Source: Haloarcula litorea
Lineage (GTDB): Archaea > Halobacteriota > Halobacteria > Halobacteriales > Haloarculaceae
Assembly (NCBI RefSeq): GCF_029338195.1
Contig: NZ_CP119781.1
Span: 62,001 to 126,000 of the forward strand
Length of the DNA stretch: 64,000 bases
Direction of reading: 5' to 3'
The position numbers were made by a program, and so were the translations under genes. A model generated the notes under the pieces. It saw only the letters and a list, made by a program, of their open reading frames with translations. It did not search any database and was not told where the DNA came from. The first letter of the stretch is position 1, and the number at the start of each line of letters is the position of its first letter. This document shows positions 30,647-36,613 of the stretch, in pieces.

Positions 30647-30922
30647 CTACCGGCGGAGAGATATGAGTAGAACCAGAAAGCCGAGCCCGATAGCGACCGA
30701 TTCGATGATGTGGACGACGGCGAGATCGAGGCCTCCGAACTCGAAAAGCACTCCCTCGATGAATACACCGATAGTGATGATACCGAATCCAATTGCGGCA
30801 TTTCGCATATAGTCCGTCCCCGTTCGTCGGTAGGCCTCGAAACTGTAGTACGTGATCAGGACGCCGAGGCCGAGGACGATCAAGCGGACGGCGAGCAGGA
30901 TTGCCGTTGTCGTATCAACCAT
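30647..30922 (-). CDS. Small three-helix membrane protein (DUF7521-like), copy A
   Basis: A 91-residue protein made of three membrane helices with the motif TYYSFEAYRRTG and an EGVLFEFGG turn. It is a paralogue of the next upstream gene, which has the same layout (FQAYRGYRRSN, EGILFDVVG). I recall such pairs next to ArsR-like regulators in haloarchaea as DUF7521. Function is unknown. It is 4 bases downstream of copy B. Confidence 0.65.
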   Translation of the reverse strand: MVDTTTAILLAVRLIVLGLGVLITYYSFEAYRRTGTDYMRNAAIGFGIITIGVFIEGVLFEFGGLDLAVVHIIESVAIGLGFLVLLISLRR

Positions 30923-30926
30923 CTAT

Positions 30927-31214
30927 TCACTCCCCCACCCTCTGTGAATCACGACCGTACAATGCATACAGGATGGTGAGCATGCCGATCGCGACGATCG
31001 CTGTCGCCACTGTCCCTGCATTGTGGAACGTCAGCCCGACCACGTCGAATAAGATACCCTCGATGATCGCTCCGAAACTGATGATGGCGAAGCCGATCGC
31101 GAGATACAGCATCGATTGACTGTTGCTTCGACGGTACCCTCTGTAGGCCTGAAACGCGATGATGAACCCGAGCGCCATCGTGACGAGCTTTGCGATGACG
31201 AGGCCGATGTGCAT
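30927..31214 (-). CDS. Small three-helix membrane protein (DUF7521-like), copy B
   Basis: A 95-residue paralogue of copy A with the same three-helix plan and matching FQAYRGYRRSNSQSMLYLAI and EGILFDVVG segments. It starts 2 bases after the winged-helix regulator stop, so the regulator and both membrane proteins form one operon. Confidence 0.65.
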   Translation of the reverse strand: MHIGLVIAKLVTMALGFIIAFQAYRGYRRSNSQSMLYLAIGFAIISFGAIIEGILFDVVGLTFHNAGTVATAIVAIGMLTILYALYGRDSQRVGE

Positions 31215-31216
31215 GG

Positions 31217-31567
31217 TTAGTCGTTCCTCATTGTGTCCCAGAGACGGGCGAACCGGTCAGGCGCATCTTCTCTGAGTTCGATACGGACGTCGAACCCTGA
31301 TTCCAAGAGTTCGACCTCGACGCGGTCCAGCTGAGCTTCGTATTCACTGTAGTGGTGACCATCGGGATCGATGTGTGTTCGCTCGACGAGTAGATCGTAC
31401 TCCAGTAGCGTATTGACGCGCCTGGAGACTGTCGAAACGGACATGTCGCATTCGTCGCTGAGTTCCTTGGCTGACATCTGGTTTCGGCGAGTCGCCTCGA
31501 GGATCGCGCGTGCATAGTCGTCGTCGAGGATGGCGAGGATCCCCGAGACATCTCGCTCCTCACTCAC
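31217..31567 (-). CDS. ArsR-like winged-helix regulator
   Basis: A 116-residue protein. The winged helix spans about 10-75: ILDDDYARAILEATRRN, then the recognition helix in SVSTVSRRVNTLLEYDLL and a wing with DPDGHHYSEYEA. The first helix-turn resembles haloarchaeal ArsR-type regulators. It heads the operon of two small DUF7521-like membrane proteins, which it probably controls. Confidence 0.75.
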   Translation of the reverse strand: MSEERDVSGILAILDDDYARAILEATRRNQMSAKELSDECDMSVSTVSRRVNTLLEYDLLVERTHIDPDGHHYSEYEAQLDRVEVELLESGFDVRIELREDAPDRFARLWDTMRND

Positions 31568-31683
31568 AGTCGACGTTTCTTCGGAACAGTATATAAAGAA
31601 ACGGCGATTTGCTGACCCAGCAAATCTGCTTGCCGGACTATATCTTCCGGGTGTGTAGGTCCACTTGCAAGGTGACCGATGCT

Positions 31684-32316
31684 ATGACCGACTCACTCAC
31701 GCGACGACGGATGCTCCAGTTGACTGGCGGCGCGGCGGTCGTGGGGCTCGCCGGATGTACCGGAACGCAGAACGGCGACGGTGGAGGAGCGAATGCAACG
31801 CCGACTGAGGCTCCTCACGATGATGCCGGCACCGAGTCGGGACACAGCGACGAAGAAAGCGGTCACGACGAAGCAGTCGGTGCACCAAGCGACGCCGCCG
31901 ACGTTCGGATGATCACCGAAGACGGTGGGTACCACTTCGAACCGCACGTCGTGCGCGTCAACGTCGGCGGGACTGTCACCTGGACGAACGAGAGCGGCAG
32001 TCACTCGACGACCGCCTACCACCCGGACAACGACCAACCCCAACTCGTCCCGGACGGGGCGACGGCTTGGGACAGCGGCATCGTCTCGGACGAGGGCGCG
32101 ACGTTCGAACACACCTTCGAGACTGAGGGCGTCTACCACTACTACTGCACGCCCCACGAATCGCTTGGAATGATCGGCACCGTCATCGTCGGTGAACCGG
32201 ACCCCCACGAACAGGTCGCCCTTGAGGAACCACCCGCCGACAAGCCCGAGCGCGTCCGCGAGAAGCTCACCGAACTGAACGAGATGGTACGGACGGCCCT
32301 CGGCGACGACCACTAA
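31684..32316 (+). CDS. Halocyanin-like exported blue-copper protein
   Basis: A 210-residue protein with a Tat lipoprotein signal (TRRRMLQLTGGAAVVGLAGC). A His/Asp/Glu-rich linker precedes a plastocyanin-type domain at about 75-175, with His in SGSHSTTAYHP and the C-x2-H-x4-M copper ligands in YYCTPHESLGM. A charged helix follows the domain (PERVREKLTELNEMV). It should be an anchored electron carrier outside the membrane. It is alone on the plus strand, divergent from the ArsR-like operon. Confidence 0.85.
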   Translation: MTDSLTRRRMLQLTGGAAVVGLAGCTGTQNGDGGGANATPTEAPHDDAGTESGHSDEESGHDEAVGAPSDAADVRMITEDGGYHFEPHVVRVNVGGTVTWTNESGSHSTTAYHPDNDQPQLVPDGATAWDSGIVSDEGATFEHTFETEGVYHYYCTPHESLGMIGTVIVGEPDPHEQVALEEPPADKPERVREKLTELNEMVRTALGDDH

Positions 32317-32400: not shown

Positions 32401-32934
32401 TCAGGCAAATACGTTGTACCCGACGTGTGCGAGGGAGAGGACCAGATATCCGAGTATCAGTAGTGCCCCCGTTCGTCGAGAGAGCGACGGGAATCCAATT
32501 GCCGCGGTTCCGTGAATCCGTTCTCCGAGCGCGTAGACGAATCGTCCGGCGAGGAGTGCGAACGGGAGGTGCACAAACACCAACGGCAGGAACAGCGAAT
32601 CGAATCTGACAGTCGTCTCCAATTGTGTCAAGTACTCGAGTTTGAGCAGTATCTCCAGTCCGGCGACAGTGAGTCCTGACGCGATAGTGGCGAACAATCC
32701 TTCAGTCTTCGAGAGGAGTCGTCCTCGCCAGTAACTCCAGGCGTAGAACGTGAGAATCAACGGGAGGAATCGAATGAACGCCTCCTCCACGAACCCAACC
32801 AGTAGTGTCCACGTCGTACTCGTCGTTGCCGGAAGAAGAGCGAGTTCGGCCAGAAAGGCGAGCCAGACGCCTAGCCCCGTCACGACGGCACTTAACACGG
32901 AGATGCCAACGAGTGATGGATAGTGACGCGTCAT
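32401..32934 (-). CDS. Multi-pass membrane protein, possible PrsW/CAAX-type protease
   Basis: A 177-residue protein with about five membrane helices. The segment FVEEAFIRFLPLI has an E-E-x3-R pattern like that of PrsW or CPBP glutamic intramembrane proteases, and later membrane segments carry FVHLPFALLAGR and LVLSLAHVGYN with His residues where these families have catalytic ones. Sequence evidence is partial, so the protease call is tentative. Confidence 0.5.
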   Translation of the reverse strand: MTRHYPSLVGISVLSAVVTGLGVWLAFLAELALLPATTSTTWTLLVGFVEEAFIRFLPLILTFYAWSYWRGRLLSKTEGLFATIASGLTVAGLEILLKLEYLTQLETTVRFDSLFLPLVFVHLPFALLAGRFVYALGERIHGTAAIGFPSLSRRTGALLILGYLVLSLAHVGYNVFA

Positions 32935-33081
32935 AGCTCACTCGGGGACATACCTGATACTTAGAGGCAATCGGGATAGACGTACCCGTTTCGACGCGGG
33001 GCCACACCCGGAGAGCATTTATTGCTGTGTGCCTGGTAGTCAGTAGCACGAAGCTGGATCGTCCCAGTTCGACACAGTACC

Positions 33082-33816
33082 ATGGCTTCCAACGACCGCA
33101 CCGCGACTGGTCTCCCGTCCGATAGGGAGAGCGATGTCGTCGGTCGTATCGAGGACGAACTCCTGTCACGGCGAGGATTCCTGACTGGACTCGGTATCGG
33201 AAGTGTCGGAGGCGCTGGTGCTATTCTTGGCCTCACACGTTCCCGCAGAGGGGTTCAATCGCTGGCGACACTCGCAGGTGGTGCGACGCTTCCTGCGGAG
33301 GTACAGTATTATCTCCCGGCAGTCGATCCGTCTCACGGCGGTCTCATTATTCCTGTCACGTTTTCGTTTTCGACTGGGGATGGAGAGTTGTTCGTCGACC
33401 TCGAGAATCTCGAGGTTCGTCACGACCTCCAGCTCGCGCTCCGTGAGGCAGCCGAAACGGCGACCAGAGTCACAGAGGGGAGCCTCGCAGACACAGCTGT
33501 CCATGTGACGTTCGAGACGCCGTCCAGCGACGTCCTCACACTCCGGGGGAAAAGCTGGGAGGCGGGGCTCACCGTCGCGTTGATTGCGGGTCTCCGTCGG
33601 CAGTCCCTCTCTCGGAAGACACTCATCACGGGCGTCGTCGACGGCGAAGGGACACTGCTGCCAGTCGGGGGAATCGAAGGGAAAGCCCGGGCAGCACGAG
33701 CGTTCGGAGCGACGGAACTGATCGTCCCCGATGGCGGTTCTTCTGACGTGTCGGTTCGGGGGATTCGTGTCGTCACGGCCGCGTCGATCGAGGATGCACT
33801 CGAGCGTATTCTGTGA
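33082..33816 (+). CDS. Exported Lon-like (S16) serine peptidase domain without AAA module
   Basis: A 244-residue protein. A Tat-type signal (SRRGFLTGLGIGSVGGAG) is followed directly by an S16-like domain. The likely dyad is Ser158 in LRGKSWEAGLTVAL and Lys201 in PVGGIEGKARAARAFGA, 43 residues apart, the same spacing as the Lon Ser-Lys dyad (Ser679/Lys722 in E. coli Lon). The VDGEGTLLPVGG strand matches the Lon block. The usual P-S-A-G around Ser is replaced by KSWEAG. There is no ATPase domain, so it would act outside the cell independently of ATP, or be regulatory (inference). Confidence 0.7.
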   Translation: MASNDRTATGLPSDRESDVVGRIEDELLSRRGFLTGLGIGSVGGAGAILGLTRSRRGVQSLATLAGGATLPAEVQYYLPAVDPSHGGLIIPVTFSFSTGDGELFVDLENLEVRHDLQLALREAAETATRVTEGSLADTAVHVTFETPSSDVLTLRGKSWEAGLTVALIAGLRRQSLSRKTLITGVVDGEGTLLPVGGIEGKARAARAFGATELIVPDGGSSDVSVRGIRVVTAASIEDALERIL

Positions 33817-34003: not shown

Positions 34004-36613
34004 TCAGCGGAGGCGACCGAGGAGCTTGTAGTCGTGGTCGGGGGTGTATCGGCGGAACAGCAGGCTGTTCGACAGCACTGACACGCTGGAGAACGCCATC
34101 GCGCCGGCCGCCAGCACCGGCTGGAGCAGTCCCAGCGAGGCGAGCGGAATCATCGCGGTGTTGTAGCCCAGCGCCCAGACGAGGTTCTGCTTGATCTTCG
34201 CCAGCGTCGCGTCCGAGATGCGGATGGCCTTCACCACGTCGACCGGGTCGTCGCGCATCAGGGTGACGTCCGCGGCCTCGATGGCGACGTCGGTCCCGGA
34301 GCCGATGGCCGTCCCGACGTACGCGACGGCGAGCGCGGGGGCGTCGTTGACCCCGTCGCCCACCATCATCGCCTTCCGGCCCTCGTCCTGAATGGCCTCG
34401 ACGGCGTCGGACTTGTCCTCGGGGAGGACCTCCGCGCGGACGTTCTCCGGGTCGATGCCCACCTGCTCGGCCACCGCACGAGCGGTGCGCTCGTTGTCGC
34501 CCGTGATCATCATCACGTCGACGCCGCGCTCCTGCAGTTGGCTCACGGCGTCCTTCGCGCTCTCCTTGACCGTGTCGGCGTCCGCGACCACCCCCACGAG
34601 TTCACCCTCGTAGGCGACGAGCATCGCCGTCTTCCCCTCCTCTTCGAGGCGTTCCATGGTATCCTGGGCGGGGGTGGGATCGATCCCGTTGTCCCGGAGC
34701 AGCTTCCGGTTGCCGACCAGGACTTCGCTGGTGCCAACCATCGCTTTGATGCCGTGACCGGGAACGTTCTCGAACTCGTCGGGGTCGGCCACGTCGATAC
34801 CGCGGTTCTCCGCACCGTCGACGATGGCGCGGGCGAGCGGGTGCTCGCTCCCGCTCTCGGCGGTGGCTGCGAGGCGCAGCACGTCCTCCTCGCTAAGCCG
34901 GTCACGCGCCGTTAGCTGACCTCCGTCAGCGGCCGGCTCTCCACCGTCCGCGACGGGCTGGCCGTCACCGTCAAAGACGACGACGTCGGTCAGTTCCATT
35001 TCGCCCTTGGTGAGCGTCCCTGTTTTGTCGAAGACGACCGTGTCCACGTCCTTCGCGCGTTCGAGGATGTCACCGCCCTTGAACAGGACGCCGTGCTGCG
35101 CGCCGAGCGTCGTCCCGACCATCGTCGCGGCGGGCGTCGCCAGCCCCAGCGCACAGGGACAGGCGATGAGGACTGCGGAGGCGAATACGATGACGGCGAA
35201 CTCGAAGACCGAGACGCCGCCGCCAGCGACTGCGGGGCCACCAGCGACGAGACCCCACAGCGGGAGCCAGTCGACGAACCCGGCGAGCGCTTCGGGAAAC
35301 AGGAACCAGACGACGCCCCACAGCACGGCGTTCGCGATGACTGCGGGCACGAAGTACGCGCTGATGCGGTCGGCGAGGTTCTGGATGTCGGGCTGGCGGG
35401 ACTGGGCCTCCTTGACCGTCTGGACGATCTGCTGTAGCGCCGTGTCCTTCCCGACCTTCGTCGCTTCAACCACGAGGACGCCGTTCTCGTTGATGGTCGA
35501 ACCGACGACCTCGTCGCCCTCGCTCTTCTCGACGGGAACGGATTCGCCGGTCACCATCGATTCGTCGACCGCGCTCTGACCGTCGACGACGACGCCGTCG
35601 GTCGGAATCTGCTCGCCGGGCCGGACCTTCATCCGGTCGCCCACCTCGACGTCTTCGAGCGGGATCTCCTCCTCGTTGCCCGCCTCGTCGATGATGGTGG
35701 CCGTCTCGGCCTCCATCTCCAGGAGCTTGCGCAGCGCCTCGCCGGCCTGTCCCTTCGAACGGGCTTCGAGGTAGTTCCCGAGCGTGATGAACACGAGGAT
35801 GAGCGCCGCCGTGTCGAAGTACAGCCCGCCGGCAATTGCGCCGAGCAGCACCGCGACAGAGTAGACGTACGCGGTGGTCGAGCCCAACGCGATGAGCACG
35901 TCCATGTTGGCGCGGCCGTTCTTGACGAGTGCCTTGTAGGAGTTCTTGTAGAACGGCCAGCCGAGCACCAGCTGAACCGGCGTCGCCAGCAGGAACTCCA
36001 CCCAGCCGAACTCGATACCGAGAATCGTCTCCGGAAGGACGCCCCCGCCGAGCAGGAACTTCTCGACGAGGAAGAACAGCAACGGTGCCGACAGCGCCGC
36101 GCCGAACAGCGTCAGCCGCAGCTGTCGCCGGATCTCTTCCTGTCGAGCGGCTTCCCTGGCGTCACCACCCGAGCTGTCTTCGCCCTCACTATCCTCTCGC
36201 ACGGGCGAGTAGCCGGCGCCCTCGATGGCGTCGTAGAACTCCGCGAGCTCCGCCTCAGCCGGGTTGAACGTGACCTGTGCCTCGTCAGTGGCGAAGTTCA
36301 CGTCGGCGGTGACGACGCCGGGCGTCCGTTCGAGGGCGTCCTGCACCGTCTCCGAGCAGTTCGCACACGACATGTCGGTGATAGCGATCGTCACCGAGTC
36401 GGTCACGGGTGAATATCCCGCGTTCTCGATGGCGTCGTAGATTTCTCCCAGCGAAACCTCGTCGGGATCGTACTCGACCGAGCCCTCGTCGGTCGCGAAG
36501 TTGATGTTCGCCTCCGAGACGCCGTCGAGCGACCCGAGCGCGTCGGCGATGGTTTGCGAACAGTTCGCGCAACTCATCCCCTGGATATCGATGTGGCTTG
36601 TCCGCTGACTCAT
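34004..36613 (-). CDS. copA: Copper-exporting P1B-1-type ATPase CopA
   Basis: An 869-residue pump. Two N-terminal heavy-metal-associated domains have [10 protein letters not shown] (C15/C18) and [10 protein letters not shown]. The membrane metal site is [12 protein letters not shown], the phosphorylation site [12 protein letters not shown], the hinge [10 protein letters not shown]. Eight membrane helices fit the type. CPC and the C-terminal N/Y/M-S-S motifs mark Cu(+) transport out of the cytoplasm. It lies 106 bases after the Lrp/TRASH regulator on the same strand and close to a CopZ-like chaperone gene, a typical haloarchaeal copper operon. Confidence 0.92.

Follow-up and report, generated by a model that had tools for sequence, protein, structure and literature searches.

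The window analysed here, i.e. the whole stretch of 64,000 nucleotides, is part of a 200,553-base plasmid contig of Haloarcula litorea. It carries a gene for an S16 (Lon-type) protease domain with an export motif, a divergently transcribed gene for a PrsW-like membrane protein, and four further genes that accompany these two in related loci:

30647-30922, minus strand: second DUF7521 small membrane protein (Pfam; 18/18 loci, 49-90% identity)
30927-31214, minus strand: DUF7521 small membrane protein, directly behind the HTH gene (Pfam; 18/18 loci, 61-92% identity)
31217-31567, minus strand: HTH_20/ArsR-like winged-helix regulator (Pfam; 18/18 loci, 44-94% identity)
31609-32316, plus strand: halocyanin-like copper-binding lipoprotein (Copper-bind, 55.4 bits; Tat/lipobox N-terminus by eye), with the gene start probably at 31684
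32401-32934, minus strand: PrsW-like membrane protein of 177 aa with about 5 TM segments and the residues E50 E51 xxx R55, E94, H122 and H170xxxN174 (profile, hydropathy)
32935-33081, no strand: divergent intergenic region of 147 bp, in which an alignment of 10 intergenic regions shows two conserved blocks, one ATAGRCGTACCCGTT-like and one TTTATTRC-like, that could act as a common promoter or operator
33082-33816, plus strand: S16 (Lon_C) protease of 244 aa with export motif, without ATPase (Pfam, PDB, alignment)
33166-33183, plus strand: twin-arginine motif S29-R30-R31-G-F-L34, with a mildly hydrophobic stretch after it (by eye)
33553-33555, plus strand: predicted catalytic Ser158 within the invariant GKSWEAG motif (alignment to the Lon Ser; family alignment)
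33682-33684, plus strand: predicted catalytic Lys201 (alignment to the Lon Lys; family alignment)

Sequence comparison confirmed the gene at 33082-33816 as encoding a Lon-type S16 protease domain with a conserved, predicted Ser-Lys dyad and without ATPase, in line with three claims of an earlier sequence-only reading of this DNA, namely the S16-like domain, the lack of an ATPase and the Lon-like spacing of Ser158 and Lys201. Pfam Lon_C (PF05362) matched residues 130-223 with 27.8 bits (cut-off 21.1), the sole further Pfam model at E ≤ 1 being ChlI (13.4 bits, below its cut-off), and Lon_C was matched at E ≤ 1 by 16 of the 16 aligned family members. NCBIfam Lon models scored far below their cut-offs. 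No ATPase model was found by Pfam in the 244 residues, that is, the protein lacks the AAA+ ATPase characteristic of the ATP-dependent Lon proteases (LonA/LonB). In a phmmer search of the PDB the protein matched Lon proteolytic domains, among them those of M. jannaschii (1xhk, E 3.1e-7) and A. fulgidus (1z0e, E 7e-5), its Ser158 and Lys201 falling on the Ser and Lys of the Lon dyad; with a 16-sequence profile the match improved to E 1.6e-9. The two residues are 43 positions apart, the same spacing as in the E. coli Lon dyad S679/K722 (PMC2605481). In the alignment of 16 sequences (the window plus 15 relatives sharing 48-76% identity, without the frameshifted L037, the duplicate loci L044 and L047 and the fragmentary L048), R30, R31, S158, T183 and K201 are unvarying, as is the GKSWEAG motif. 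Pairwise dN/dS was about 0.16-0.30 in 18 of the 19 computed pairs, the remaining pair being saturated, which indicates that the gene is under constraint. An AlphaFold model was of low confidence (mean pLDDT 38.2, pTM 0.37), at which the Ser-Lys geometry is not readable; the input alignments for this protein and its PrsW-like partner had no sequences besides the window's own and near-identical ones from Halorubrum. Among the 50 Foldseek matches listed for this model all were Lon chains, which may lend weak support to a Lon fold, weak because the query TM-scores were just 0.24-0.28. The H. litorea genome holds one other Lon_C match, an 805-aa frame on contig C1 that is, by inference, LonB.

By eye, the N-terminus of the S16 protein reads LSRRGFLTG followed by a mildly hydrophobic stretch, and R30, R31, F33 and L34 are unvarying in 16 of 16 aligned sequences. 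Mean hydropathy was 1.11 for residues 32-46 and 1.15 for residues 181-195 within the domain, and Pfam TAT_signal matched one of the 16 members (E 0.0034). Of the Tat signal claimed earlier, what stands is an invariant arginine pair with a hydrophobic stretch behind it, the Tat reading itself being made by eye. Export of the protein is probable; judged from its sequence only, it has a signal or anchor at its N-terminus and S16 as its only domain. The hydrophobic stretch stops a few residues before the conserved domain start (around residue 58), so that without cleavage the protein would remain at the membrane. The motif QSLATLAG was considered as a special cleavage site and rejected, as this is where other exported-type S16 proteins begin to align with the profile. 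The annotated starts of the relatives on two plasmids lie 68 (L061:9205) and 18 codons (L063:9055) within the conserved frame, the former cutting off the twin-arginine motif.

Relatives of the S16 protein were found on eight plasmid records (two each from Salinigranum and Halorubrum, the others from Halorarius, Haloarcula, Halomarina and Haloprofundus), labelled "S16 family serine protease" in five cases and "hypothetical protein" in three. In addition, when 41 phylum genomes were searched with Lon_C, 20 of the 36 outside the order had a second S16 match, weaker than the first. Eighteen of these loci were fetched, one per genome, and in 16 of them a hydrophobic signal or anchor can be seen by eye at the N-terminus (judged from an internal Met in L238); the exceptions are L225 and L240, the latter with a long ATPase-like N-terminal part. 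When the profile of our family was compared with one built from 15 of the 18 (L225, L233 and L240 left out), the match reached E 2.8e-17 over 183 columns, versus E 3.2e-15 over 157 columns for 28 Lon domains, i.e. the family is nearer in profile to the exported-type S16 proteins from outside the order than to Lon domains. These stand-alone proteins with a signal or anchor, which we take to be COG1750, share with ours the S16 Ser-Lys dyad, the N-terminal signal or anchor seen by eye and the lack of an ATPase, but have a DGPSAG-type motif. In the few kb around the 18 loci there was no PrsW-profile match or close homolog of the partner, the PrsW HMM used being one that also failed on known partner genes. 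Literature searches on COG1750, "S16 family serine protease" and extracellular or archaeal Lon-like proteases with a signal peptide found nothing.

A studied precedent is YlbL of B. subtilis, which, like our protein, has a Lon domain without ATPase together with a predicted membrane or export segment. As described in PMC6051672, YlbL has a transmembrane segment and likely acts outside the cytoplasm on the membrane protein YneA; its function depends on the catalytic serine, and protease activity in vitro was not detected. It carries a PDZ domain and a dyad (S234/K279) spaced by 45 residues (PMC6051672), whereas in our protein the spacing is 43 and no PDZ model matched. Archaeal LonB shares a homologous proteolytic domain and the dyad spacing, but is membrane-anchored and carries an AAA+ module (PMC9263693), which our protein lacks. 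A 2008 survey counted 78 of 117 Lon-like proteins with further domains (PMC2605481). Given YlbL, the loci outside the order and the existing "S16 family serine protease" annotations, an ATPase-less S16 protein with a signal or anchor is a known and common kind, so that the sequence-only reading is only partly supported and its interpretation incomplete. It is the twin-arginine motif, GKSWEAG and the partner gene that set this subfamily apart.

The partner gene, which the earlier reading did not mention, adjoins the S16 gene and is divergently transcribed. It encodes a 177-aa membrane protein with five TM segments in a hydropathy scan. Its profile was compared by hhalign with 65 archaeal PrsW sequences (29 of 30 collected by us, L070 being dropped, 16 of 17 hand-picked, L166 being dropped, and 20 more) and scored 41.4 (E 4.3e-6, probability 86.8%, 119 columns), as against 9.7 for the reversed profile, at best 21.5 for 100 block shuffles (none reaching 41.4) and at most 21.2 for nine other control profiles, two of which were built from only 2 sequences each. 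An earlier comparison with 29 haloarchaeal PrsW domains only had given E 0.001 and a probability of 21%. The alignment puts E50/E51, E94, H122 and H170xxxN174 onto the PrsW motifs, described as EExxK, a terminal HxxxD and an extra His (PMC4602095). E50, E51, E94, H170 and N174 are invariant in 17 of 17 rows, and H122 is found in 16, with Tyr in the Halorubrum row. Thus PrsW (PF13367) and the partner share the motif order EE, E, H, HxxxN/D as well as the profile match; the partner differs in being shorter, in having EExxxR where PrsW has EExxK, and in Pfam, where hmmscan of the 17 partner sequences gave no PrsW (PF13367) or Rce1-like match (0/17). Elsewhere in the H. litorea genome, C1 carries two PF13367 matches. 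Assignment to the CPBP/CAAX family (PF02517, Rce1-like), which EExxxR had suggested at first, was rejected, the score of 20.6 lying within the controls. On this comparison, the partner resembles a divergent PrsW-type intramembrane protease. Its AlphaFold model was of low confidence (pLDDT 42.1; shallow alignment), and the best E-value of its profile against the PDB was 0.9. In 392 phylum genomes the profile gave three matches at E ≤ 0.01, two in known carriers and the third with E 0.007 over 39 positions. Mean K+R counts (N-terminus 1.7, loop 1 0.3, loop 2 2.5, loop 3 2.3, loop 4 2.9) mildly favour an N-in orientation, which would place the motif residues mostly near the outer face; this is weakened by loop 3, which would lie outside under the N-in model and is also positive. 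Going by these loop charges, the active sites of the S16 protein and the partner would be on the same side.

In 391 genomes drawn evenly from the class Halobacteria, the S16 gene was present in 20 (E ≤ 1e-10) and the PrsW-like gene in the identical 20 (E ≤ 1e-6), and the two were adjacent and divergent in all 20. In one genome (G196) a contig edge leaves the S16 gene as a fragment, and two others have a second copy. That of G323 (L037:8719-9450) has a frameshift after the Ser158 motif; in G373 the S16/PrsW-like pair occurs twice on the 363,938-base contig C2 (at 114851 and 336798), with identical scores. The Haloprofundus MHR1 plasmid has an S16 match over 54% of the query and is absent from the seven plasmid hits of the partner, and in Halorubrum amylolyticum (L030:4200-5800) an insert with a transposase-like frame, identified by eye, breaks the PrsW-like gene and the S16 frame is open. 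Several of the fetched S16 loci are near-copies of one another, and joint transfer of adjacent, mostly plasmid-borne genes can alone yield such a shared distribution. Searches of viral contigs with both family alignments gave 42 and 53 pattern matches, with no relative among them. No literature on the S16/PrsW-like pairing was found, including by a search combining PrsW, Lon protease and haloarchaea, most candidate papers being judged by their listing.

The pair belongs to a larger core. That is, all 18 fetched loci contain the S16, PrsW-like, halocyanin-like, HTH and two DUF7521 genes, and no other window gene that was scored occurs in more than 10; the 18 include near-copies (L043/L044, L045/L047) and the contig-edge fragment L048, and they reach about 8-9 kb on each side, which gives more distant window genes little chance of scoring, and the counts leave aside window genes that had no match. 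Counts of P-type ATPases across the loci take in cross-matches down to 37% identity. Core gene order is identical in 16 of the 18; in L039 and L046 the rest of the core lies 4-5 kb away and the S16/PrsW-like pair is still together. Homologs of the HTH regulator occur in 386 of the 391 class genomes, which makes the presence of HTH and DUF7521 genes a weak criterion, and in two genomes, G173 and G305, the HTH, DUF7521 and halocyanin-like genes occur without an S16 match. In six of six further HTH loci (L139, L141-L145) a DUF7521 gene adjoins the HTH gene, so that a membrane-protein/regulator pair is plausible. The island around the core (17871-42299) has a metal-resistance look, with a P-type ATPase at 34004-36613 (Pfam) and, by eye, a second P-type ATPase and a permease with YHS-like motifs; relatives' islands hold cupredoxin or SHOCT-type genes. 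Loci L034-L038 have, between the halocyanin-like and PrsW-like genes and about 670-1110 bases upstream of the S16 gene, an extra hydrophobic protein of 141-144 aa that is absent from the window, and behind the S16 gene on the plasmids of Haloprofundus MHR1 and Halomarina BCD28 (L062, L063) lies acnA, an aconitase gene.

With a probability of about 0.5, we propose that the exported S16 protein and the PrsW-like protein work as a two-protease unit outside the cytoplasm, whose substrate belongs to the core. This is suggested by the shared presence in 20 of 391 genomes, the adjacency, the PrsW profile similarity and the six-gene core in 18 of 18 loci. Precedents are YlbL, for a Lon domain that may work outside without ATP, and PrsW, which has been described as the site-1 protease of RsiW; with the latter in mind, an S16 gene adjoining a PrsW-like gene could represent a two-step extracytoplasmic cleavage unit. 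The S16 protein would be a Ser-Lys endopeptidase exported through Tat that stays at the outer face of the membrane or beyond it, where it would need no ATP to cut segments that are accessible or close to the membrane. It would cooperate with the PrsW-like protease, either by both cutting one substrate in turn (a site-1-type cleavage near the membrane and trimming of the ectodomain) or by one protease activating the other. The earlier reading had left a choice between accessible substrates and a processing system, and of these the latter is the better-supported half. It had also looked to the neighbours for likely substrates, and there are now candidates: the substrate would most likely come from the six-gene core, being the halocyanin-like lipoprotein or a DUF7521 membrane protein that may control the neighbouring HTH regulator.

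A simpler view, rather unlikely in our estimate, is that the S16 protein works alone in envelope quality control or peptide trimming and that the PrsW-like gene hitchhikes on the metal-resistance island. In its favour, many S16 proteins in other parts of the phylum bear a signal and have no detected PrsW neighbour, the pair occurs patchily (20 of 391 genomes) and on plasmids (8 records), and H. amylolyticum has an open S16 gene beside a broken partner. Against it, the two genes share all 20 genomes and stay paired in the two loci with a distant core (L039, L046), other scored neighbours reaching 10 of 18 loci at most. The same strict pairing could mean, with lower probability still, that the PrsW-like protein is a dedicated maturation protease that cuts the Tat anchor and so releases or activates the S16 protein, in favour of which the hydrophobic stretch ends close to the domain start (around residue 58) and would keep the protein at the membrane until it is cut. 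Against this, no partner of this kind was detected for the anchored S16 proteins from other parts of the phylum, and the conserved QSLATLAG is where the profile alignment to those proteins starts, so that it need not be a cleavage site.

It is highly improbable that the S16 domain has no catalytic activity and works instead in binding or as a chaperone module. The serine is set in GKS, compared to GPS/GDS in LonA/LonB, and no activity is known, but S158, T183 and K201 are invariant in all 16 aligned sequences.

Returning to the two-protease unit, an unlikely extension of it is that the core is an archaeal system of regulated intramembrane proteolysis leading from copper or redox state, via the halocyanin-like lipoprotein, the proteases and the HTH regulator, to metal resistance. 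Extracellular copper or redox state would be sensed by the lipoprotein and would trigger the S16 and PrsW-like proteases, which would cut a DUF7521 protein restraining the HTH regulator and thereby switch on the plasmid metal-resistance genes. If true, this would give an ATP-free Lon domain and a PrsW-type protease a signalling role in Archaea. The part most worth testing is the strict pairing of the S16 gene with a PrsW-like gene in a six-gene, copper-linked core. The process served by HVO_0408, the H. volcanii PrsW homolog, is listed as unknown in a 2022 review (PMC9263693); a strictly paired cassette with a regulator and a copper protein would make the questions posed by HVO_0408 and YlbL accessible to gene deletion in haloarchaeal laboratory strains, and if the pairing is functional, it would provide a further setting, besides that of YlbL, for a Lon domain without an ATP motor.
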